Positions 2,917-21,533 of a stretch of 40,339 nt of DNA are shown piece after piece. The stretch's first letter is position 1, and every line of letters begins with the position of its first letter. The position numbers and the translations under genes are program-made. The notes under the pieces were generated by a model. It was not told the origin of the DNA. It did no database searches and worked only from the letters and a program-made list of their open reading frames with translations. Where the stretch lies: positions 1 to 40,339 of IMG/VR virus record IMGVR_UViG_3300029286_000106. One strand, written 5' to 3'. The stretch is from a virus.

Positions 2917-3603
2917 TTATTTGGCCAGCTCTTTTTCAGCCATTACTAAGGCATTTTGATATTCTAGTTTACTATCAGATGCCATTAATTCTTTCGCTTT
3001 CTTATCGAGATTGAAAGAATACTCATCAACGCCTTTAGGGGCCGCGCTACCATCGTTGTTTGCGAGTGCAGCTTCTCCAATCTCGGAGAATAATTTTGCG
3101 CTCGGCATCAAGTCGATGATTTCGAAGAACTTAGTTGCTTGATCAGAACTTAAAGACATAGCGAAATCAGTTGCTTTATCTTTTAAGCTTGCAGGCAATT
3201 TACCCTTGTCGGCATTATTTTCACTATAAATGAAACCATTTATTTTTTCAGACATTTCCATTTTCCTTAATTTCTCCGTAGCTAGTAAACCAGCGGCAGC
3301 ATCATCTTGAAGCTTTTTAATTTGCGCTTCACTCATCGTGTTGTTGCCTTTATTTTTATTCGCTTCTGCTTCTTCTGCCGCCTTTTTATCGGCCTCATCT
3401 TTAATCTTTTTATCAGATTCTTCCTTTTCTTTTGCTTCTTTATCTTCTCTTTCTTTCTTTTGTTCATCAGTTTCAGCTGGTTCGAGTTCTTTAAACTTAG
3501 TTTTATCTGCTTCGTCTAACTCGCTAAAATGAGAAGTAATGAATGACTTCTCGTCATTACTTAAATCAGCGAAGATTTTTTTTGCGATTTCTTTTAAATC
3601 CAT
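2917..3603 (-). CDS. Possible nested scaffold protein from internal start, 228 aa
   Basis: An in-frame ATG at 3603 (MDLKEIAKKIFADL) falls exactly at the boundary between the protease and the helical scaffold region. In Mu (I/Z) and lambda (C/Nu3), the scaffold is made separately from an internal start inside the protease gene. The same arrangement is plausible here. Upstream of this ATG lies A/T-rich sequence (AAATTAATTTACAAAC), similar to other starts in this phage. This is inference only; another in-frame ATG lies at 3336. Confidence 0.4.
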   Translation of the reverse strand: MDLKEIAKKIFADLSNDEKSFITSHFSELDEADKTKFKELEPAETDEQKKEREDKEAKEKEESDKKIKDEADKKAAEEAEANKNKGNNTMSEAQIKKLQDDAAAGLLATEKLRKMEMSEKINGFIYSENNADKGKLPASLKDKATDFAMSLSSDQATKFFEIIDLMPSAKLFSEIGEAALANNDGSAAPKGVDEYSFNLDKKAKELMASDSKLEYQNALVMAEKELAK

Positions 3604-4125
3604 ATGTTTGTAAATTAATTTTTCAGACAGCACGACTGGATTCAGACCTTTAAAATACGGCCTGTTAGTCAGCGCACCACCTATTAAAACATTATTATAT
3701 AATCTTCGGTCCTCCGGGTCCTCGTATTGGAAGTAGAACTCTGGACTAAAAAAACGATAAATCGCGTTTTTAATCAGTTCTCGACCTTTGGCGTTCCACT
3801 CCACCATTCCGAAAAGTCCCTCATTACCTTTATTAATTAATTTTTTAATCCAACCAGTCGCCCCTTTATCAGAATAATGTTCTTCATCTATCGGCAGACC
3901 GACTGTCGCGCTATGCGCGCGCAAGCTATTGTTAAAATTATTAACAAAATCTTCTTGTATCTCTGGGGTTATTTCTACCATGCCATAACTTGGATGATTC
4001 CATTTTCCCGGCTTTAAAAGCATTAATTCATAACCACCATCTTTTTTTTCAGCAAACGATAAATCGATTGGAACTAATGTTCTAATCGCTTGGTTTTCTT
4101 TAGCTGTTTTTAAATCTTTTGGCAT
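2917..4125 (-). CDS. Mu gpI-like prohead protease fused to scaffold domain, 402 aa
   Basis: The N-terminal ~170 residues match the Mu gpI-type maturation protease: DFVNNFNN, GLPIDEEHYSD followed by ATGWIKKL, and YRFFSPEFYFQYEDPE. The acidic/His 'DEEH' segment and 'GWI' strand are family landmarks. From about residue 175 the protein becomes helical and very rich in Lys/Glu/Ala (about 225-270), then ends in a Ser/Lys/Ala scaffold-like domain. This is the usual protease-scaffold fusion cut during head maturation. An upstream in-frame ATG at 4164 would add 13 residues, but it lies inside the terminator stem, so the ATG at 4125 is preferred. The gene sits just below a leader ORF and terminator. 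Confidence 0.8.
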   Translation of the reverse strand: MPKDLKTAKENQAIRTLVPIDLSFAEKKDGGYELMLLKPGKWNHPSYGMVEITPEIQEDFVNNFNNSLRAHSATVGLPIDEEHYSDKGATGWIKKLINKGNEGLFGMVEWNAKGRELIKNAIYRFFSPEFYFQYEDPEDRRLYNNVLIGGALTNRPYFKGLNPVVLSEKLIYKHMDLKEIAKKIFADLSNDEKSFITSHFSELDEADKTKFKELEPAETDEQKKEREDKEAKEKEESDKKIKDEADKKAAEEAEANKNKGNNTMSEAQIKKLQDDAAAGLLATEKLRKMEMSEKINGFIYSENNADKGKLPASLKDKATDFAMSLSSDQATKFFEIIDLMPSAKLFSEIGEAALANNDGSAAPKGVDEYSFNLDKKAKELMASDSKLEYQNALVMAEKELAK

Positions 4126-4132
4126 ATGGTTT

Positions 4133-4162
4133 AAAAAAAACGCACCGGATTTTGTCCGATGC
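4133..4162 (-). terminator. Intrinsic terminator just before the head protease gene
   Basis: On the minus strand, GCATCGGA (4162-4155) pairs over 8 positions (one G-U) with TCCGGTGC (4149-4142) around a CAAAA loop. A G and eight Ts (4140-4133) follow, which is a canonical rho-independent terminator. It ends 7 bases before the protease ATG at 4125, in the middle of the late operon, where a full stop would block the capsid genes. It is therefore more likely a regulated or partial terminator. Confidence 0.75.
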
Positions 4163-4172
4163 ATTTTTAGAG
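4153..4172 (-). repeat. 20-bp direct repeat, copy 2 (inside terminator)
   Basis: CTCTAAAAATGCATCGGACA occurs here and again at 4236-4255, 83 bp apart. Each copy carries an A-rich stretch and an ATG CAT CGG ACA start. Copy 2 supplies the 5' arm of the terminator hairpin. Confidence 0.95.
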
Positions 4173-4247
4173 AGTTGGATCTCCAAACAAATCACGGACT
4201 AACTTGCTTATTGACCCTCGAGAAATCAACAAGCGTGTCCGATGCAT
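4167..4247 (-). CDS. Putative 26-codon leader ORF upstream of the head protease
   Basis: The ORF reads ATG CAT CGG ACA CGC ... CTC TAA; the peptide starts MHRTRLLISRG and ends LVRDLFGDPTL. It lies between the glycosyltransferase stop and the terminator. It starts in repeat copy 1 and stops 3 bases before copy 2. It spans a GTCCGTG segment (4193-4199) that can pair with either repeat copy. The layout resembles a leader peptide of a transcription attenuator. Translation is not proven. Confidence 0.35.
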   Translation of the reverse strand: MHRTRLLISRGSISKLVRDLFGDPTL

Positions 4248-4255
4248 TTTTAGAG
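4236..4255 (-). repeat. 20-bp direct repeat, copy 1 (start of leader ORF)
   Basis: This is the exact second copy of the 20-bp sequence at 4153-4172. It contains the ATG (4247) of the 26-codon leader ORF and overlaps the end of a TATACT box. Confidence 0.95.
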
Positions 4256-4259
4256 TATA
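4254..4259 (-). promoter_or_regulatory. Candidate late -10 box (TATACT) 6 nt before the leader ORF ATG
   Basis: TATACT is followed by six bases (CTAAAA) and the ATG at 4247. The same TATACT-N6-ATG spacing is seen at 35158-35170. No good -35 element is visible, so any activity would need an activator. The predicted start of transcription falls at or very near the ATG. Confidence 0.3.
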
Positions 4260-5066
4260 TTATTTTTTTATTTTAGCATAATTAATGTTTTCATTGCCTT
4301 TTTCTTTCTTAATTAATTTTACCATATCTTTACTATACTGTCTAATTTCTCCGTTGTTTTCCTGTGAGGTATAATCTGCGCGCCGGATTACTCTGCTTGT
4401 GACGTGTCCTATCTCAATATCAGTATCAACATAAATCTTAAATCCTAGTTCTCTGGCATCGCGACAGAAGTTAAAATCCTCCCCGGTCTTTGAAAAATAG
4501 AAATAAGGATATGTCATTTTCTTTAAAACTTCGGTGCTTATCAGTATTGCCCCGAAACCGACTGCATCTGTGACCATTAACCCCATATTGCACGCATCAA
4601 CGAACGTCATGGCTTCTGTTTCCTCTAATTTGGGGTCTTTGACGAATATGCAGGGATAATGAGGAGATGTCCTGCGATAGGCTCTCACGCCCACTACGGG
4701 CCGTTTGTAGAGCAATAGGGTATGAACTATGTCCTTATCAAAGACGTGGTCGCTGTCTATCATCATTAAATGAGTAAATCCCTCGTCTATGGCCATTTTA
4801 GCCAGGGCATTTCTAGCTTCATGAGTGACCATGCGCGGCACAGTTCTTATTTCCCATTTAGTGCTTTCTAAATTTGAAGCAATAAACATCGCTAACTTAA
4901 TAAAACTTTTAAATGGACTGTCGCCAGGCATATCATCATACGTTCCGGTATTAGGCAATCCGATTAATACTTTTGCCTCGGACCAGGTCTTTTTGCAATA
5001 AGTTTCCCAGTTGGCCGCATCTTCTTCGCTTACGTCTTTTTTAAAGATTTTTTTAATGTTTAACAT
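4260..5066 (-). CDS. GT-A fold glycosyltransferase-like protein in the head module, 268 aa
   Basis: It has a nucleotide-sugar transferase look. VPRMVTHEARNALAKMAIDE is followed by THLMMIDSDHVF, a DxD-type metal/sugar-nucleotide motif (DSD). VVGVRAYRR and a distal GEDFNFCRDARELGFKIYVD segment (the acidic ED motif of GT2 enzymes) follow. Proteins like this, often labelled family-2 or MNN9-like, recur in phage head gene clusters, where their substrate is unknown. It starts 6 bp after the portal-MuF gene and precedes the attenuator-like leader. It could glycosylate a virion protein. No signal peptide or membrane segment is seen. The fold assignment is good; the substrate is unknown. Confidence 0.7.
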   Translation of the reverse strand: MLNIKKIFKKDVSEEDAANWETYCKKTWSEAKVLIGLPNTGTYDDMPGDSPFKSFIKLAMFIASNLESTKWEIRTVPRMVTHEARNALAKMAIDEGFTHLMMIDSDHVFDKDIVHTLLLYKRPVVGVRAYRRTSPHYPCIFVKDPKLEETEAMTFVDACNMGLMVTDAVGFGAILISTEVLKKMTYPYFYFSKTGEDFNFCRDARELGFKIYVDTDIEIGHVTSRVIRRADYTSQENNGEIRQYSKDMVKLIKKEKGNENINYAKIKK

Positions 5067-5072
5067 TGGTGT

Positions 5073-8042
5073 TTATTTTAAATTATCAATAACCTTTTGC
5101 ATGTCCTTAATCGCTTTTTTATGGATTTCTATGCGATTAGGATAATTTCCATCTTTTTCGTATTTCTTTATCTTATTTTCTCGATTGGCTATTTCCTTGA
5201 CGTATTCAGTTTTTACAAAATCAGAAGCAACACTATCTTTAGTCAACTTAGGCATTTTTAATTGCTTAAAATCGTTAATGCTATCGTATCTGTCAAGCAA
5301 TGAATTCGGCGCACCGGTTATTTCCGGCAACTCCGATTCGTCTTTCATAATTTCAACCCATATACCGCGGCAATTTGAATGGAATTGGTCCTCTCCTGTG
5401 AATGGATCATCAACGCTAAATGTTCGACCATCTAAACTCATGCAGAAATTGCACGTTCTATCGTCAAGTAGTTCCGAGCGTTGGAGAGCATGGATATCAT
5501 TCTTATGGGTCATCTGCGTTAATCTTCGGCCGCCATTAATAGACCCGGAAGCAATTATTGAAGCGGTATTTTTGCTTACTTCTTTAATCGCCGCGGCCAT
5601 AACCTTTTCAACTCTGCCGATTGCTTTTTTTGGCTCTGTTCCTTTAGAGATACTATTAATCGTTTCTATCTTGGCTTTGGTCATTATTCTGGTTTCGTGA
5701 TCTTCAACAATTAATCCGGCCTGCACTTTTAATCTATCCATTTCTTCCTTTGGGCTTTGGGGTGGGGTCACTTTAATTTCGGCTGCGACTGTATTCTTTC
5801 CAAAATTATAAAGCTCTTTCATTTTCTCAAATATCTGGTCTTTATATTTACCGGTATAGCTTAACGATATATCCTGAATTGCTAAATAATCTTTATCTTT
5901 AATGGCTCTTTCAAACTTTTTTAAAAGACCTTTTTGTTCTTCCTTTAGAGCTTTTGAGAGCAACGCTTCAAATTCTGCTTCTTTCTTTTCGAATTCTTTT
6001 TTTAAATTTCCGAAATTAACTTTTTTTTCCGCAAATGTATATTCGCGATATGGTTTAAATGTTTCGCTTAACAAATGCAAATTTTTTTTTTGACCCTGAT
6101 CGTTAAATAGGGTATTGTCCATCTCGGCCAATCTTTCTTTTCTGTCGGCCATCATATCTTTGACTTCCTGAATGCGGTCTTTTATTTCCTTTCGCTTGCT
6201 CGGACTATCAGTGCTATCGTATTGTTTTTCCAATTTCTCAATTCTTAACTGGTCTTTTTCTACGCGCTTCTCCAGTCTTGATTTTCTAAGTGCGGCCTTT
6301 CTTTCCTTAATTGGCGCATTAATATTATCCTTTGCGCCTTTTTGTCTGTCTTTTTCCGCTTTTATTCCCTCTTTTCCAGCCTTAATCATTTTTTGAATTT
6401 CCGCAATTTTATCTTTAACGCTTTTATTAAACGCCTTTTTAGTCTTAGTGTCCTTTATCAATGCCGACTTTGTTCTAAAGTTTTCAACTACTGATTTTAA
6501 TTCGTCTATTCTGCGTTTGGCATCGGCAATACTATTTCCGCTATTTTCAATTTGAGTGACATCGGCCGAATGACCTTTGCTTGCCCAATAATCTTTTAAT
6601 GCCTGGCTAATTTTTTGTTTAGTATCGACACTAACCGGAGCCTTAAACATCATTTCGTCTTTTAAGGCTTCGTTAAACTGCCTTATATCTTCGTCATCCT
6701 CTTCGCTCATTGTTTGTTTGATTTCTGCTGGTTGCTCTGGCTCTCCCTCTCCGGCAACATCAACACTTAATAATTCCAATTCGGTTAATAAATTTTCTGT
6801 TTCATTATCATCTTCGTCTTTTTCTGGCTCGTCAGGTAAGTCCATTTCTTTTCGGATATACTTCTCATCATTCGTATTAAGCTTAATAATATTTGCCCCA
6901 ACTAAAGTATTAATGGCGGTAGCAAACTTAACTTTATCAATCGCACCTATTTCATCAACTTCAAGCGTAGGATATTCCTTTGTTCCGGGCCAGTTAATAT
7001 CGCACAACTGTTGAATAGCATATTTGTTAACAACGTCTTTAATATTCTTAGCAATCGCCTGTAAACTATCATAAAAGAAATCGCTTTGATCTTCGCTTAA
7101 TGAATAACTACCAGATGACCCGCCTGCGCCCAACATTAAGAATTGAGCCAAGACATTCAAGACAATCTGTCTGTTATGATATTCGATACTTGATTTCGGG
7201 TCGCGCACCTTATTCGCGCCCATATCCATAAACCCTATTTCATATCCCTCCGGGTAAACGACATATGCTTTCTCATTAGCTCTTAAATTTTTAACTATCT
7301 CAACGGCATCAGTTTTATCTTTAGGAGTATATCCTGACGGCAATTTACAGTATGGCACGCCTAATCCTTGACGTTCGAATGCCATCGCATCTATCTGCTC
7401 GAATACGTCTTTAAAAAACCAAGACTTATAAGCCGATCGAAGTATCGAGATTCCCTCCCAATTATCGCCCTCTTTTTCGTTAGTAAAAATTAATAACTTC
7501 TCTATCGGTATTTCGACAGATCCTTTCGAGTTAGTCACCTGCGTTATTCCGTCTTTCTGTGCTGCTATCATTTTCCAAGATTGGACTGTCCGCGGATGGC
7601 GTGAAGCAAATTTCTTCCATCCAATATATTGCTTGCCCTCATATTCTACATATCCAAATACCTTTTCAAAAACAAAAACCCCATAATCAAGCATTAATAG
7701 GGCTTCCCTTATAAAATCATCCCATGTTGTCGACATGGCTTCTTTCAAATTGTATTCAATAAATTTAGCTTGCTCTATTTGTAAAGCATCTTCTCCGGCC
7801 GGCTTGACATACCAATTAGCCGAGCGTAAAGGTAATTTAATAACTTTAAGCGATGCGGCTACTGTCGCATCTCCTTTTCTCATTTTATCGTAAACAGAAT
7901 ATTTACTTGTTCCGCTTAGGTCAGAATTATATTCTTCTCCCGATATCATTCCGTTGTAAATAGTCGTTCCAGTATCTCCTAACTCCGAGTTTAACGCCGG
8001 AGCTTTTTCTGGTGTTTCTTTAAAAAGTCCAAATAAAGCCAT
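5073..8042 (-). CDS. Portal protein (DUF935-like) fused to MuF-type head protein, 989 aa
   Basis: Residues ~1-410 resemble DUF935/Mu gp29-type portals: YDKMRKGDATVAASLKVIKL, SANWYVKP, DFIREALLMLDYGVFVFEKV, and the QIVLNVLAQFLMLG segment near the clip. The middle (~430-760) is highly charged coiled coil and includes a short NUMOD3-like stretch (KQKISQALKDYWASKG). The C-terminal part holds a MuF/gp30-type domain, with LLDDRTCNFCMSLDGR and FHSNCRGIWVEI (the CxxC...HxxCR signature). Portal and MuF are normally separate genes (~450-550 and ~300-400 aa); here they are fused, so each portal subunit carries its own MuF domain. The portal would form the dodecameric DNA channel. The gene starts 6 bp after terminase. 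Confidence 0.85.
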   Translation of the reverse strand: MALFGLFKETPEKAPALNSELGDTGTTIYNGMISGEEYNSDLSGTSKYSVYDKMRKGDATVAASLKVIKLPLRSANWYVKPAGEDALQIEQAKFIEYNLKEAMSTTWDDFIREALLMLDYGVFVFEKVFGYVEYEGKQYIGWKKFASRHPRTVQSWKMIAAQKDGITQVTNSKGSVEIPIEKLLIFTNEKEGDNWEGISILRSAYKSWFFKDVFEQIDAMAFERQGLGVPYCKLPSGYTPKDKTDAVEIVKNLRANEKAYVVYPEGYEIGFMDMGANKVRDPKSSIEYHNRQIVLNVLAQFLMLGAGGSSGSYSLSEDQSDFFYDSLQAIAKNIKDVVNKYAIQQLCDINWPGTKEYPTLEVDEIGAIDKVKFATAINTLVGANIIKLNTNDEKYIRKEMDLPDEPEKDEDDNETENLLTELELLSVDVAGEGEPEQPAEIKQTMSEEDDEDIRQFNEALKDEMMFKAPVSVDTKQKISQALKDYWASKGHSADVTQIENSGNSIADAKRRIDELKSVVENFRTKSALIKDTKTKKAFNKSVKDKIAEIQKMIKAGKEGIKAEKDRQKGAKDNINAPIKERKAALRKSRLEKRVEKDQLRIEKLEKQYDSTDSPSKRKEIKDRIQEVKDMMADRKERLAEMDNTLFNDQGQKKNLHLLSETFKPYREYTFAEKKVNFGNLKKEFEKKEAEFEALLSKALKEEQKGLLKKFERAIKDKDYLAIQDISLSYTGKYKDQIFEKMKELYNFGKNTVAAEIKVTPPQSPKEEMDRLKVQAGLIVEDHETRIMTKAKIETINSISKGTEPKKAIGRVEKVMAAAIKEVSKNTASIIASGSINGGRRLTQMTHKNDIHALQRSELLDDRTCNFCMSLDGRTFSVDDPFTGEDQFHSNCRGIWVEIMKDESELPEITGAPNSLLDRYDSINDFKQLKMPKLTKDSVASDFVKTEYVKEIANRENKIKKYEKDGNYPNRIEIHKKAIKDMQKVIDNLK

Positions 8043-15131: not shown

Positions 15132-15800
15132 TTATTTCTTTTTATGGCAAACTCCAACAATGAAGATGCCGCGTTTATTTAAGCCCTCTAAATTTCCTTT
15201 TACTCGTTCGTAGTTAACCAGTTCTATACCCTCTTGGATATATAATTCCTCGTGATCGAAGTATTTAGTTATCAGCTCATAAGCTTCTAAAAATGTGTAA
15301 ACTACTTTATGATATTTGCTCGGGTTGCAAAGAGGGATTGAATAGACGAATCTGCCATCATCTTTTAAGCAATCTTTAATACCCTGTAAAAATAAATTAG
15401 GGTCATTAAGGTGTTCTATCGTTTCAAAACTGGTTATTAAGTTGAATTTAGAGTTTTCTATTAATTCAAAATCACTTAAATGACCAAATAATTTTTTATC
15501 TAATTGTTCATTTTCAAAATTAATTTTATAAATAGTTCCTATCATTCGTTCTTCATTATTCAGAAGTTCAATAGTAAAATCTACGGCCTCCTGGCTAACA
15601 TCTGCTCCTGATAAATTCGCTCCCAACATCCCCATAACTTTAAGCCCATATCCCGATCCGCAAGCGACATCTAAAATACGGCCGACTTTGGCATATCTGG
15701 TCGCAAAGGCATAACGGATTAAATGCTCGGACATTGTTTGCGCGTGACAAGTTTTGTTAGGGACGCAACGTTCCCCAGTAAAAGTTAAATCGTTAATCAT
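15132..15800 (-). CDS. Class I SAM-dependent methyltransferase, 222 aa
   Basis: It has a Rossmann-fold methyltransferase core. Motif I is GRILDVACGSGYGLKVMG, the acidic end of strand 2 is SGADVSQEAVDF, motif IV is FNLITSFETIEHLNDPNLFL, and the post-motif is LKDDGRFVYSIP. The N-terminal LTFTGERCVPN and HLIRYAFATRY are seen in small-molecule or sugar methyltransferases linked to glycosyltransferase clusters. The likely substrate is a glycan or lipid intermediate rather than DNA (no target-recognition domain). Its ATG overlaps the TGA of the HNH gene (ATGA). Confidence 0.8.
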   Translation of the reverse strand: MINDLTFTGERCVPNKTCHAQTMSEHLIRYAFATRYAKVGRILDVACGSGYGLKVMGMLGANLSGADVSQEAVDFTIELLNNEERMIGTIYKINFENEQLDKKLFGHLSDFELIENSKFNLITSFETIEHLNDPNLFLQGIKDCLKDDGRFVYSIPLCNPSKYHKVVYTFLEAYELITKYFDHEELYIQEGIELVNYERVKGNLEGLNKRGIFIVGVCHKKK

Positions 15801-16345
15801 ATATTTTTATTTAAGAATTCTTCTAATTGTTCTTTGGTATTATTTAATTTACCATATCTTTGATGAAATTCTAGATGTGATTCCTCTGATAAGGTGATTC
15901 CGTTATCAATAGCAAATCTAAGTTCGGGATATTGAGCGAAATTTTGAATATGATGAGTTCGTAATTTTTTACCTCTTATTCCTGTTTTCTGGCAAGTCCA
16001 ATTGTCGCGTGCTAGAACTGAATTTCTCCATAATTCATATTCTATCGATGTTCTGATTTTTATATTTTCAGGAGTGATACCGCCTTTCCAGTTAGGATGT
16101 TTTTTTCCTTTAAACGCTTTACTTATTTTCTTTTTTGTAATATCTGTATGATGTTTCCCTTTTATCCACGGAGTATTACCCATATGTGATAAACTCATCC
16201 TTTCTCTTGCTGTTTCTGAAAAATATCTACCTCTACTTGATTTACCAATTTTAACCCTAGCCGATTTTGAAACAGAATGCCCCATTAATGCTTTTCGTAT
16301 TTTATCTGATCTCGCTACTGGATTTGTGAAGACTCCTTTGGGCAT
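15797..16345 (-). CDS. HNH homing-type endonuclease with NUMOD3 repeats, 182 aa
   Basis: The N-terminal half has repeated NUMOD3 DNA-binding motifs (RSDKIRKALMGHSVSKSARV, ETARERMSLSHMGNTPWIKG, KKKISKAFKGKKHPNWKGGI). The C-terminal HNH core is LWRNSVLARDNWTCQKTGIR, then LRTHHIQNFAQYPELRF, DNGITLSEESHLEFHQRYG. The H-N-H catalytic residues are kept, but the usual CxxC zinc knuckles are replaced (CQKTG, SEESH), as in several phage homing nucleases. It overlaps the upstream GT2 gene by 31 bp and is related to the 21114 gene. It is probably a selfish mobile gene inserted in the glycan cluster. Confidence 0.85.
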   Translation of the reverse strand: MPKGVFTNPVARSDKIRKALMGHSVSKSARVKIGKSSRGRYFSETARERMSLSHMGNTPWIKGKHHTDITKKKISKAFKGKKHPNWKGGITPENIKIRTSIEYELWRNSVLARDNWTCQKTGIRGKKLRTHHIQNFAQYPELRFAIDNGITLSEESHLEFHQRYGKLNNTKEQLEEFLNKNI

Positions 16346-17121: not shown

Positions 17122-17580
17122 TCATTTGATTAATTCTTCAACTACATTTACAACGACTCCATTGCCGCATAATTTATAGCGCTGGGAGTCGGATATTTCT
17201 TTTGCGTTACCTATTTGTCCAGGGCATATTGAGTCCTCCATAAAATCACCAATCGCTGTCCATCCGTCAGGGAGCCCCATTAATCTTTCGCATTCCGTGG
17301 GAGTTAAGCGGCGAATACGAGTGTCTTGAATTGTGTGTTGTTGCATTCCAGTGTCCAGGGTATTTGCTATTCCGTGGCCGAATCGGCCACGGCGTGTCTT
17401 GCTATCTATAACGGATAAATTAATACTGTCGCCCGGTTCTGCGATGGCATATCCTTGTTTAGTGGCTTCGGGCACCATGATTTTAATGTCATCTTTATCA
17501 CTTAGTCTTCGGGATGGTGCCACCATCCCGACTTTCCATGGTTCAGTGCTACGACCTCTAATTATAGCAATCTTTGTCAT
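17122..17580 (-). CDS. C-terminal half of the cytosine methyltransferase as a possible separate ORF, 152 aa
   Basis: An ATG at 17580 (MTKIAIIRGRSTEPWKVG), 4 bases after the G9 tract, opens the frame holding target-recognition residues and motifs IX-X. Split C5 methyltransferases with separately made halves are known, so the two halves could in principle reassemble. More likely this is simply the downstream part of one shifted gene. Confidence 0.4.
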   Translation of the reverse strand: MTKIAIIRGRSTEPWKVGMVAPSRRLSDKDDIKIMVPEATKQGYAIAEPGDSINLSVIDSKTRRGRFGHGIANTLDTGMQQHTIQDTRIRRLTPTECERLMGLPDGWTAIGDFMEDSICPGQIGNAKEISDSQRYKLCGNGVVVNVVEELIK

Positions 17581-17584
17581 TACA

Positions 17585-17593
17585 CCCCCCCCC
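17585..17593 (-). repeat. Homopolymer G9 tract in the methyltransferase gene
   Basis: Nine consecutive Gs on the coding strand fall in the Gly-Gly-Gly turn of the methyltransferase. Tracts of this length are slippage-prone and are a common basis of phase variation in DNA methyltransferases. Lengths of 8 or 11 would restore the full frame. Confidence 0.9.
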
Positions 17594-18336
17594 TGTTCCT
17601 GTTGGAGTGGTTGGAGCAATTCCTTCGGGACAGTAGACTCGTCTAATGGATTCATTTCGTTTGAGCCAAGTTTCTGAATTAAGTTCTCCGACAACTTTGA
17701 TTTTATTTTCATCGTCTGTTCCTCGCTCAAAAAATACTTCTCTTGGACATCCGTCTCTAAAACCGACGACAAAGATACGCTCTCGGTTTTGAGGGACACC
17801 GAAGTCTTTGGCGTTGAGAACTTGCCACCAGAGAGAATACCCTGCTTCGGCCATTTCATTGAGGACTGCTGAAAAATCGAATCCTCTATTGCTAGACAAA
17901 GCCCCTTTAACATTCTCCCAGATAAAATATTTAGGTCTTTTTTCCATGACTGCTCGCATGTATTCATAAAAGAGTCCACTCCTAGACCCATGCAGGCCAG
18001 CGCGCTTGCCAGCGATTGATAAATCCTGACACGGGCTTCCGCCTGTAAGCAAATCAAAGTCGGGAATTTTAGACCAGTCGATTTTTGTAATGTCACCATA
18101 GTTTTTAATTTTAGGCCAGTGATATTTAAGAACCGCTGACGCGTATTTGTCGATTTCACTGAATCCGATTGTTTCAAAAGTATCCCCCAATCCTGCCTTT
18201 GCGTTAAGGTCCAGCCTGCGCGGTTGCTCGCTGGTTGTATCCTTTGTTTTAGATTGCTGTTTTTCTGACTGAAGTATATTTTGTAATGCGAGTGAAAATC
18301 CGCCATAGCCACTAAATAAATCAAAATGAGTTAATT

Positions 18337-19440
18337 TCATATTCGTTTAATTTTTCTGCTAAATGTTCCAAGCGTTCTTTCTAAGATTGACTTCCAGTGC
18401 CTATTTTCGTGTGCGCCGGGAATTAAATAAACCAAATCTTCAATCTGCTGTTTTAATTCCTTGACCTCGCGGCCGATAATTTTACCCTCTAAAGTTTGGC
18501 GGATTAATTCCTGCCAGTCGTTTCTAAATCTTTCTGGACTAAAATAGTGCATCGCGGTTTTTCTTCCCTCTAAACCAATCTTGCGCGCTTTTTCGGGATT
18601 ACGTCTTAACCATTTTAATATCTCAACGGCTTCTTCCACACTATCACCTGATATTAAAAATCCGTTTTTACCATTAACGATATATTCATCCCAATCATGA
18701 TAAGGCGTGCTGACGACTACACATCCGGCAAGCATCGCTTCGGTCCGGGAGCGCGGCATTGGGCTGTGTCGTGTCGGATTAAAGCAAATTAGGCTCTCGG
18801 CCAGATATTTCCGATATTCTTCGTAGCTTCTGCACCTTATTTCCTGGCCGATATGAACAATGCCAATTTGTTCTTTTACTTTTTTAAAAAAATCTCTGTT
18901 ATGATATTCGCGCCAGCCATCTTTTAACGGATTATTCGCTTCTTCCCGGATTGTCGTAATTATTCTATTTTCCTTTTTTTCCACTGGCTTAAAATCTACC
19001 GCGCTTATTCCGTGAATAATACATTTCCCAAATCCCCATTCTTTCAAGGCTTCTCGGCTGTTAACGACCATTGTGTTGTCGCCAATCATTTTTCTCATTT
19101 CTTCTCTTAAATCTTCCGGGTCTTTATCTTGAAAGTGCGGCGTTCCGTGATTAATTACTATTTTAGGGATGTCTTGTATCTGCTCGTTCATCATCCGATA
19201 AGGCACGCCTTTATGGTCGCCATATAAGCATTGCTGATCAACATGTAAAATAGCAAAATCGTATGATCCTGGCTCATAGTGGTCAACAAAGAATAGGTTT
19301 TTAGGAACTGGCCGACTTTCTTCATTCCATTGTTTAATAGTATTTTTGATATAGTAAAAATTAAACTCCGGGAAAGCGTTAATAAGCGATGCCTGATGTC
19401 CAATATGCCAAGCATACCCAAATACGTTAAGCTTTTTCAT
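18337..19440 (-). CDS. GT-B-like glycosyltransferase, 367 aa
   Basis: It is a GT4-type layout. The N-half (FGYAWHIGHQASLINAFPEF, FAILHVDQQCL, VINHGTPHFQDKDPEDLREE, NTMVVNSREALKEWGF) is followed by the donor-binding half with CFNPTRHSPMPRSRTEAMLA, GCVVVSTPYHDWDEYIVNGK and NGFLISGDSVEEAVEIL. 'RSRTEAMLAGC.VV.T' followed by 'V..G.NGFL' is the standard nucleotide-sugar pocket of GT4 enzymes. The C-terminal ~60 residues are helical. Its TGA overlaps the methyltransferase ATG (ATGA), so both are co-translated. It is first in the glycan block after the repeat-rich 19442 gene. Confidence 0.82.
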   Translation of the reverse strand: MKKLNVFGYAWHIGHQASLINAFPEFNFYYIKNTIKQWNEESRPVPKNLFFVDHYEPGSYDFAILHVDQQCLYGDHKGVPYRMMNEQIQDIPKIVINHGTPHFQDKDPEDLREEMRKMIGDNTMVVNSREALKEWGFGKCIIHGISAVDFKPVEKKENRIITTIREEANNPLKDGWREYHNRDFFKKVKEQIGIVHIGQEIRCRSYEEYRKYLAESLICFNPTRHSPMPRSRTEAMLAGCVVVSTPYHDWDEYIVNGKNGFLISGDSVEEAVEILKWLRRNPEKARKIGLEGRKTAMHYFSPERFRNDWQELIRQTLEGKIIGREVKELKQQIEDLVYLIPGAHENRHWKSILERTLGTFSRKIKRI

Positions 19441-19441
19441 A

Positions 19442-20050
19442 TTATTTCAATTTTGATGGAAATTCTAAATTACAAGGCGGAACATAGACAAGGAATTTTC
19501 CATTGACTAATCCGACAGGATAAAGACCAAGTTCCCAAAGAGGAATGAGATTGATAAAATTTCCTTTCGGATATTTTTCTTTATATCCATCAAGATTAAG
19601 AGCAAGAATATCTGCTGCGCCCCATGCTGCGCCCCGTGCTGCTTCCCGTGCTGCTTCCCGTGCTGCTTCCCGTGCTGCGCCCCATGCTGCGCCCCGTGCT
19701 GCTTCCCATGCTGCTTCCCATGCTGCTTCCCGTGCTGCTTCCCATGCTGCTTCCCATGCTGCGCCCCGTGCTGCTTCCCATGCTGCGCCCCGTGCTGCTT
19801 CCCATGCTGCTTCCCATGCTGCGCCCCGTGCTGCTTCCCATGCTGCTTCCCAATCTTGCGGAGTTCTTAAATGTTTAAATTCAAGACTAGCCTTAACTCC
19901 AAAAGCTTCACAAGCTAATTTAACTTGGCTTTCTACCTCTCCACGATTGATATCCTTGGCCGGTTTAAACCAACTAATCTTTTTAATCCGAGAAATATAA
20001 TCGTTCAAACTCTTCTCTACTTCTTTAGGAAATTTTTGATTGTAATTCAT
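19442..20050 (-). CDS. Protein with 19 tandem AA[W/R][E/G] repeats, 202 aa
   Basis: Residues 1-68 (starting MNYNQKFPKEVEKSLNDYIS) and 145-202 are ordinary. Residues 69-144 are 19 uninterrupted four-residue units, Ala-Ala-(Trp or Arg)-(Glu or Gly), encoded by a perfect 12-bp period. The unit would form a long alanine-faced helix with i/i+4 Arg-Glu pairing and a Trp stripe. Similar repeats occur in uncharacterised phage and metagenomic proteins, with no known function. The C-terminal end (LIPLWELGLYPVGLVNGKFLV) is hydrophobic-mixed and may be a small beta domain. The gene starts 10 bp after the 20061 gene. Copy number is likely unstable because unit length is a multiple of 3, so length can change without a frameshift. 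Confidence 0.75.
   Translation of the reverse strand: MNYNQKFPKEVEKSLNDYISRIKKISWFKPAKDINRGEVESQVKLACEAFGVKASLEFKHLRTPQDWEAAWEAARGAAWEAAWEAARGAAWEAARGAAWEAAWEAAREAAWEAAWEAARGAAWGAAREAAREAAREAARGAAWGAADILALNLDGYKEKYPKGNFINLIPLWELGLYPVGLVNGKFLVYVPPCNLEFPSKLK
19619..19846. repeat. 12-bp tandem repeat array, 19 units
   Basis: Nineteen contiguous 12-bp units of consensus GCTGCTTCCCAT (plus strand) vary only at two places: T/C (Trp/Arg) and TTC/GCC (Glu/Gly). A partial unit extends to 19613. Because the period is a multiple of 3 and stop-free, several frames on both strands stay open, which creates false ORFs (for example plus strand 19545-20000). Confidence 0.97.
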
Positions 20051-21113: not shown

Positions 21114-21533
21114 TTATTTTTCTAAAAAAATTATTAATTGATTTCTATCGTTTTTTGTTTGACCAAATTTTTTATGAAATTCTTGATGTGATTTATCTGA
21201 TAATGTTATACCGTTATTAATATCAAATCTCAATTTCTCATTATCTGAAAAATTTTCTACGTGGTGAGCTTGCAGTTTGACACCCCTTTTCCCCATCTTC
21301 TGGCAAGTCCAATTGTCGCGAGCAAAGACTGCTTCGCGCCAAAGACGAATTTCGAGAGATGTTCTTATTTTTTTATTTTTTGGAGTAATTCCATTTTTCC
21401 AATTATAGTGTCTATTTCCACTAACCTTTTTACTAATTTCTTTTTTTGCTGTTTGAGTTAAAGAATATCTGCCTGTTTCTGTATTAAAAAATATTTTTTC
21501 TCCTGTTATAAAATCTTCCCTCAATATTTTCAT
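21114..21533 (-). CDS. HNH endonuclease, 139 aa
   Basis: It is a shorter paralogue of the 15797 gene without the NUMOD3 repeats: NRHYNWKNGITPKNKKIRTS, LWREAVFARDNWTCQKMGKR, LQAHHVENFSDNEKLRFDIN, NGITLSDKSHQEFHKKFGQ. The HH, N and H active-site residues are present; the CxxC zinc pairs are missing. The N-terminus reads MKILREDFITGEKIFFNTET and may be a short DNA-contact region. It has its own promoter (21586-21614). It is probably a homing nuclease next to the initiator gene. Confidence 0.85.
   Translation of the reverse strand: MKILREDFITGEKIFFNTETGRYSLTQTAKKEISKKVSGNRHYNWKNGITPKNKKIRTSLEIRLWREAVFARDNWTCQKMGKRGVKLQAHHVENFSDNEKLRFDINNGITLSDKSHQEFHKKFGQTKNDRNQLIIFLEK

Follow-up and report, generated by a model that had tools for sequence, protein, structure and literature searches.

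Does a phage switch the methylation of its own DNA by slippage at a run of guanines? The question is raised by the window analysed here, a stretch of 40,339 nucleotides of viral DNA, in which a minus-strand gene for a C5 cytosine methyltransferase is divided over two reading frames at nine consecutive Gs (G9). The phage carries a Mu-like portal protein (PF06074), and its methyltransferase gene lies between two glycosyltransferase genes.

A C5 methyltransferase gene in two frames

The gene starts at ATG 18340 on the minus strand, and its first frame (alpha) extends for 260 codons to 17558, encoding motifs I (DLFSGYGG), IV (GGSPCQ), VI (ENVKG) and VIII (QNRERIF). Motifs IX (RRLTPTECERLMGLP) and X (CGNGVV) are encoded in a second frame that ends at 17122. 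Both parts match PF00145 (E-values 4e-56 and 1e-9), and when the gene is read across the tract, motifs I, IV (PCQ), VI (ENV), VIII, IX and X follow in the order characteristic of the C5 family. The frame of alpha is lost precisely at G9, past motif VIII and ahead of the target-recognition region. Removing one G yields a protein of 405 residues that matches TIGR00675 (dcm) over residues 7–405 (E-value 4e-70). Frames, translation and profile matches thus bear out two points of the preliminary description, namely that the landmarks of a C5 methyltransferase are distributed over two frames at a nine-G run, and that eight Gs give one intact 405-residue enzyme. The features of the gene are as follows.

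17122–18340, minus strand: full extent of the alpha gene (C5 cytosine DNA methyltransferase), with its frame interrupted at G9 (PF00145 on both parts; TIGR00675)
17558–18340, minus strand: alpha as read at G9, 260 residues, motifs I–VIII (translation)
18322, 18043, 17917 and 17791, minus strand: positions of motifs I, IV, VI and VIII in alpha
17585–17593, minus strand: G9 homopolymer, the presumed slippage switch (outcome computed for each tract length)
17269–17313, minus strand: motif IX, RRLTPTECERLMGLP
17143–17175, minus strand: motif X region, KLCGNGVVVNV
17122–17580, minus strand: candidate separate small subunit of 152 residues, recognition half plus motifs IX–X (ATG 4 nt past the G run)

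The predicted products depend on the length of the tract. At G8, alpha has 405 residues, and a second, overlapping +1-frame product (beta) has 172 and ends two codons past the tract. At G9, as sequenced, alpha stops at 260 residues and beta continues through the recognition half and motifs IX–X, reaching 325 residues. At G10 the two products have 253 and 180 residues, respectively, and at G11 full-length alpha is restored (406 residues). The 152-residue ORF behind the run is open whatever the tract length. The locus has the form of a poly-G phase-variable gene, in which a tract of at least about eight bases lies within the coding region and a change of one base toggles the full-length product. 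It is also the sole G/C run longer than five bases in the 40-kb window. GGG accounts for 12% of glycine codons in the window, and a run of at least eight Gs arose in 1.4% of trials in which the protein was recoded with the window's codon usage. Only three genome-contig relatives were found, and the viral contigs searched included none conspecific with the window, whether of this or of another tract length.

Two further features of the window were recorded. A 12-bp unit is repeated 20 times at 19613–19852 in the gene at 19442–20050 (AAWEAARG-type repeats), where a change in copy number would preserve the frame. Two similar HNH-type ORFs lie at 15797–16345 and 21114–21533, the first with a NUMOD3 motif.

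A conserved overlapping frame enters the tract

Upstream of the tract, the frame that encodes the C-terminal half stays open over a long distance, as far as 18324. This corrects the preliminary description, since it is a conserved overlapping frame and not a product of chance. Three features define it.

17122–18099, minus strand: +1-frame ORF at G9, beta fused to the recognition half and motifs IX–X, 325 residues from ATG 18099 (phrog_16143 and PF00145)
17594–18099, minus strand: overlapping beta frame up to the tract (open-stretch test; phrog_16143)
17701–17775, minus strand: conserved beta module SLSSVLETDVQEKYFLSEEQTMKIK, in the +1 frame, overlapping the end of motif VIII (the part of beta best predicted by AF2)

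When synonymous codons were permuted within the gene, the +1 open stretch of 245 codons compared with a mean expectation of 82 (p=0.0005), and the +2 frame of the same gene had no excess openness. Only 1 of 35 other window genes fell below 0.05 in this test. Across two sets of relatives, p was at most 0.01 in 123 of 139 methyltransferase genes, which are related and so do not amount to independent trials, compared with 1 of 168 flanking genes. In 1107 divergent pairs, whose alpha proteins are less than 45% identical, the +1 peptides resembled each other more than synonymous shuffles did, both in the part that ends at motif VIII (z=19.6) and in the part that directly follows it (z=17.1), with no excess from motif IX onward (z=-6.7); since the +2 frame shows an excess there too (z=3.8 and 10.3), part of the +1 signal may reflect general nucleotide conservation. 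An ATG lies near one site in 50 of 56 genes (37 expected). A Shine-Dalgarno-like sequence accompanies this ATG in 13 genes, compared with 4.7 expected, and the window's own start is without one.

Beta also has recognisable relatives. A phrog_16143 match was found in 27 of the 28 records tested, the window included, and the same family holds the product annotated as 'beta subunit' in Streptococcus phage MM1 (orf14), which is encoded in the same +1 frame. In the window's +1 ORF, phrog_16143 covers the beta part and PF00145 the C-terminal part. The AF2 model of beta has a mean pLDDT of 64, with 85–96 over residues 111–140 and low confidence outside the module. Among 206 genes of the +1 type, there was no natural fusion of beta to a C-terminal part with motif IX; phrog_1008 matches both pieces separately, and no real fusion was traced from it.

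The C-terminal end of beta is a module of the type SLSDILExxVDEKYFLS, and a similar segment follows motif VIII in frame in further C5 enzymes from phages and, by alignment, in M.MpeI. Scored with a profile HMM built from 23 +1 peptides (cut-off of 8 bits or more), 206 of the 288 genes examined had the module in the +1 frame and not in frame 0, 70 showed the reverse, 12 had it in neither frame and no gene had it in both. These proportions are not population estimates, because duplicates were kept, the 23 training genes were included and one recruiting search for in-frame genes used the module peptide EDDVDEKY among its patterns. The absence of genes with the module in both frames is the robust part of the count. 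The AF2 model of alpha from the relative L035 matches HhaI, with a recognition region so poorly predicted that it cannot show whether a module is missing.

Tracts in relatives of the gene

In L002/L035, the nearest relative (63% identity), an independent in-frame G9 occupies a different place in the same region. Its tract reads GCG GGG GGG GGC (AGGG) where the window has GCA GAA CCG GGC (AEPG), preceding DSINLS. The geometry is the same as that of the window, with beta stopping three codons past the G9 of L035. Among the first 80 relatives, a run of G8 or longer occurs in one other gene only and an in-frame G7 in two, and in about 427 kb of flanking sequence from these relatives, some of it from redundant contigs, no G/C run reaches nine bases. 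A different homopolymer breaks the C5 methyltransferase of the pneumococcal Streptococcus phage IPP54 (L057), at an A8 in the recognition region (about 1553–1560), one base from frame.

Several other candidates were rejected. The breaks in L121, L123 and L126 are HNH endonuclease insertions, Javan113 and Javan104 differ by one nonsense substitution in the gene and not through slippage, the frame disruption of Javan29 coincides with no homopolymer, and L341, the sole other match to the L035-like tract pattern, does not look like a methyltransferase when its frames are inspected. The HNH-endonuclease-like insertions of L121, L123 and L126 lie downstream of motif VIII. In L003, two HNH-like ORFs (521–904 and 953–1288) occupy other frames, and the methyltransferase frame is open through both.

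Length-variable tracts in other phage methyltransferase genes

A first comparison with other phage METHYLTRANSFERASES came from contigs with multiple tracts, which had been recruited by protein homology to another phage C5 enzyme and not by their tracts. One such contig, L298 (IMGVR_UViG_3300021311_000001), has nine G/C tracts of 7–10 bases within 3 kb of consecutive DNA-methyltransferase genes (3491–6507), and tracts of this block are present also in L299, L300 and L306 and in the related L301 and L302. Pfam matches in the block include C5 DNA_methylase and MT-A70, with N6_N4_Mtase scoring weakly at its start, below threshold. By listed length, 8 of the 9 tracts vary across the block contigs. 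Compared with L298, the contigs L299, L300 and L306 have no substitutions over 9,542, 9,501 and 4,453 bases, with 6, 5 and 1 gap openings, respectively; these four contigs thus differ solely by the lengths of G/C tracts, each of which lies inside or next to a DNA-methyltransferase gene. Where L215, L216 and L217 were aligned base by base (4.7 kb), substitutions are likewise absent, and all internal indels fall within G/C runs. In the 126-kb contig behind L215, tracts of G8 or longer are confined to 3 kb of methyltransferase genes (95,990–99,006), apart from one at 119,750 that lies inside a Dam gene (Pfam). Other long contigs of the same and a related phage show similar clustering, with no outlier or at most one. 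On this pattern of genes and tracts, the block looks like a combinatorial phase-variable methyltransferase block.

A second case is a phage Dam-type N6-adenine methyltransferase with a tract at one conserved site. Across 34 IMG/VR contigs (L307–L340), chosen by a pattern that requires G7 or more, the tract is G7 in 12, G8 in 4, G9 in 16 and G10 in 2; some of these contigs are copies of one phage and the 34 are therefore not independent events. The flanking frames agree only at G8, leaving 30 of the 34 out of frame, and one pair of contigs differs as G7 and G8 with no mismatches over 300 bases. Tracts are also present in the same phages in another C5 gene and in genes that resemble other DNA methyltransferases, as judged by eye from their peptides. 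G runs were also seen in or beside PAPS-reductase-like genes (identified by eye) in this kind of phage (L307 at 6511, L317 at 5250, L315 at 2104 and 2317).

Such tracts thus recur, with differing lengths, in phage methyltransferase genes. The earlier statement that poly-G slippage is rare in phage-encoded methyltransferases looks wrong in view of the Dam tracts and the multi-methyltransferase block. The variation in these genes is seen between assembled contigs rather than in reads, and could in part reflect consensus errors at long G runs.

Probable phase variation and its alternatives

We consider poly-G phase variation of the window's C5 methyltransferase to be the best explanation of the locus and a probable one, the case being strong by analogy. 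Slipped-strand mispairing during replication would add or remove a G between motif VIII and the recognition region. G8 or G11 would then yield one full-length enzyme, alpha would end past motif VIII at G9, and the resulting phage population would be mixed for its DNA-methylation state. The tract itself, the independent G9 of L035, the Dam tracts of G7–G10, the tracts of the methyltransferase block and the A8 break of IPP54 all favour the phase-variable reading of the preliminary description, from which we infer that the tract switches in this phage, presumably under selection by host restriction. The benefit proposed there, that some particles would evade restriction or methyl-dependent nucleases, is a putative one. 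Points that weigh against phase variation are the lack of a second tract length for this phage in the contigs searched, the near-absence of runs of G8 or longer among the first 80 relatives, and the consensus errors that may lie behind part of the tract differences between assemblies. At G9 activity may be lost, although a split enzyme or a beta fusion is a further possibility.

Known systems provide a frame for this reading. Poly-G tracts have been described in putative methyltransferases of H. canadensis (PMC2823697), and like the phase-variable methyltransferases of bacteria, which are switched by homopolymers or short repeats, the window gene contains a homopolymer at which one base toggles the frame. 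Unlike them, it is phage-encoded, its tract lies mid-gene between the catalytic and recognition halves, and a conserved overlapping frame enters the tract. The overlap as such is already known from streptococcal phages: C5 methyltransferases overlap in the 5093-group phages of S. thermophilus, where this was noted without a selection test or a role (PMC5601072). In MM1 and the 5093 group, as in the window, a second ORF lies within the C5 gene in a different frame, and beta of the window and of MM1 share phrog_16143; unlike the window, the MM1 gene has no G tract of at least seven. In the literature searched, we found no description of the breadth of the overlap, its selection signal or the mutual exclusion of in-frame and +1 modules. 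The open papers searched likewise contained no report of poly-G switching in phage-borne methyltransferases, which is weak evidence of novelty.

The least improbable of the alternatives holds that tract length decides which of two overlapping proteins receives the C-terminal half, so that G9 would encode a two-subunit enzyme, possibly active or of altered specificity. In M.AquI, the large part comprises motifs I–VIII and some of the variable region and the small part comprises the rest with motifs IX–X (PMC3404938). The window gene breaks at the corresponding place, between motif VIII with the variable region and the remainder with IX–X, and with a natural enzyme split at these motifs, the G9 form could still be active. 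Because G9 truncates alpha and fuses beta to the recognition half and motifs IX–X, it may represent a split enzyme rather than simply an OFF state. Such a swap is further favoured by the frame arithmetic, by the canonical order of the G9 beta product (module, recognition region, IX, X), by the conservation of the beta overlap, by the matching geometry of L035 and by the C-terminal switching at homopolymers proposed in Helicobacter canadensis (PMC2823697). Unlike in M.AquI, the split in the window depends on tract length, and the two-subunit activity is a prediction. M.EcoHK31I would be a further two-polypeptide likeness if the G9 form is split; according to PMC3404938, its small polypeptide carries motif IX only and motif X is in the large one, unlike the window, where both are together in the second frame. 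Against a swap, none of the 206 +1-type genes has beta fused to a C-terminal part with motif IX, and beta, the fusion and the small ORF are predicted products only. It is unlikely, although conceivable, that the tract acts as a domain switch that would place the recognition half on alpha or on beta, alternating between a one-chain and a two-subunit enzyme, with beta supplying the module in trans.

It is also conceivable that the genome is uniformly G8 and the tract inert, the ninth G being an error of consensus or assembly. The window is a metagenomic contig, homopolymers are the classic site of such errors, and an intact gene is one base away. Even so, the tract exists whatever its exact length, these genomes have few long G runs and those runs turn up repeatedly in methyltransferase genes, and Dam tracts out of frame in 30 of 34 contigs are hard to obtain from random error around an intact state. 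We regard an error as quite improbable. Decay of the gene through a fixed frameshift after loss of selection has precedents in the phage relatives Javan113, Javan29 and Javan172, whose genes are interrupted by nonsense mutations or disrupted frames; here both halves are otherwise intact with all checked motifs present, and beta is open as far as the tract, which makes decay very unlikely. Runs of nine identical bases can make a polymerase or ribosome slip, but constitutive recoding, in which transcriptional slippage or ribosomal frameshifting would yield some full-length enzyme from G9, has the smallest chance of being correct, given that L035's own G9 is in frame and that tract lengths in the multi-tract phage are not the same from contig to contig, a variation for which fixed recoding would have no use.

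Implications

Poly-G phase variation, if phages indeed switch their own DNA methylation by slippage, would make a single phage stock an epigenetic mixture, with consequences for host range, for restriction tests and for surveys of methylomes. With the comparative data, such switching can already be put to the test at the Dam and C5 tracts of many phages. In addition, a conserved +1 protein within many phage C5 methyltransferases, carrying a module that is otherwise encoded in frame, would mean that annotations of a common enzyme family usually lack one of its two products.
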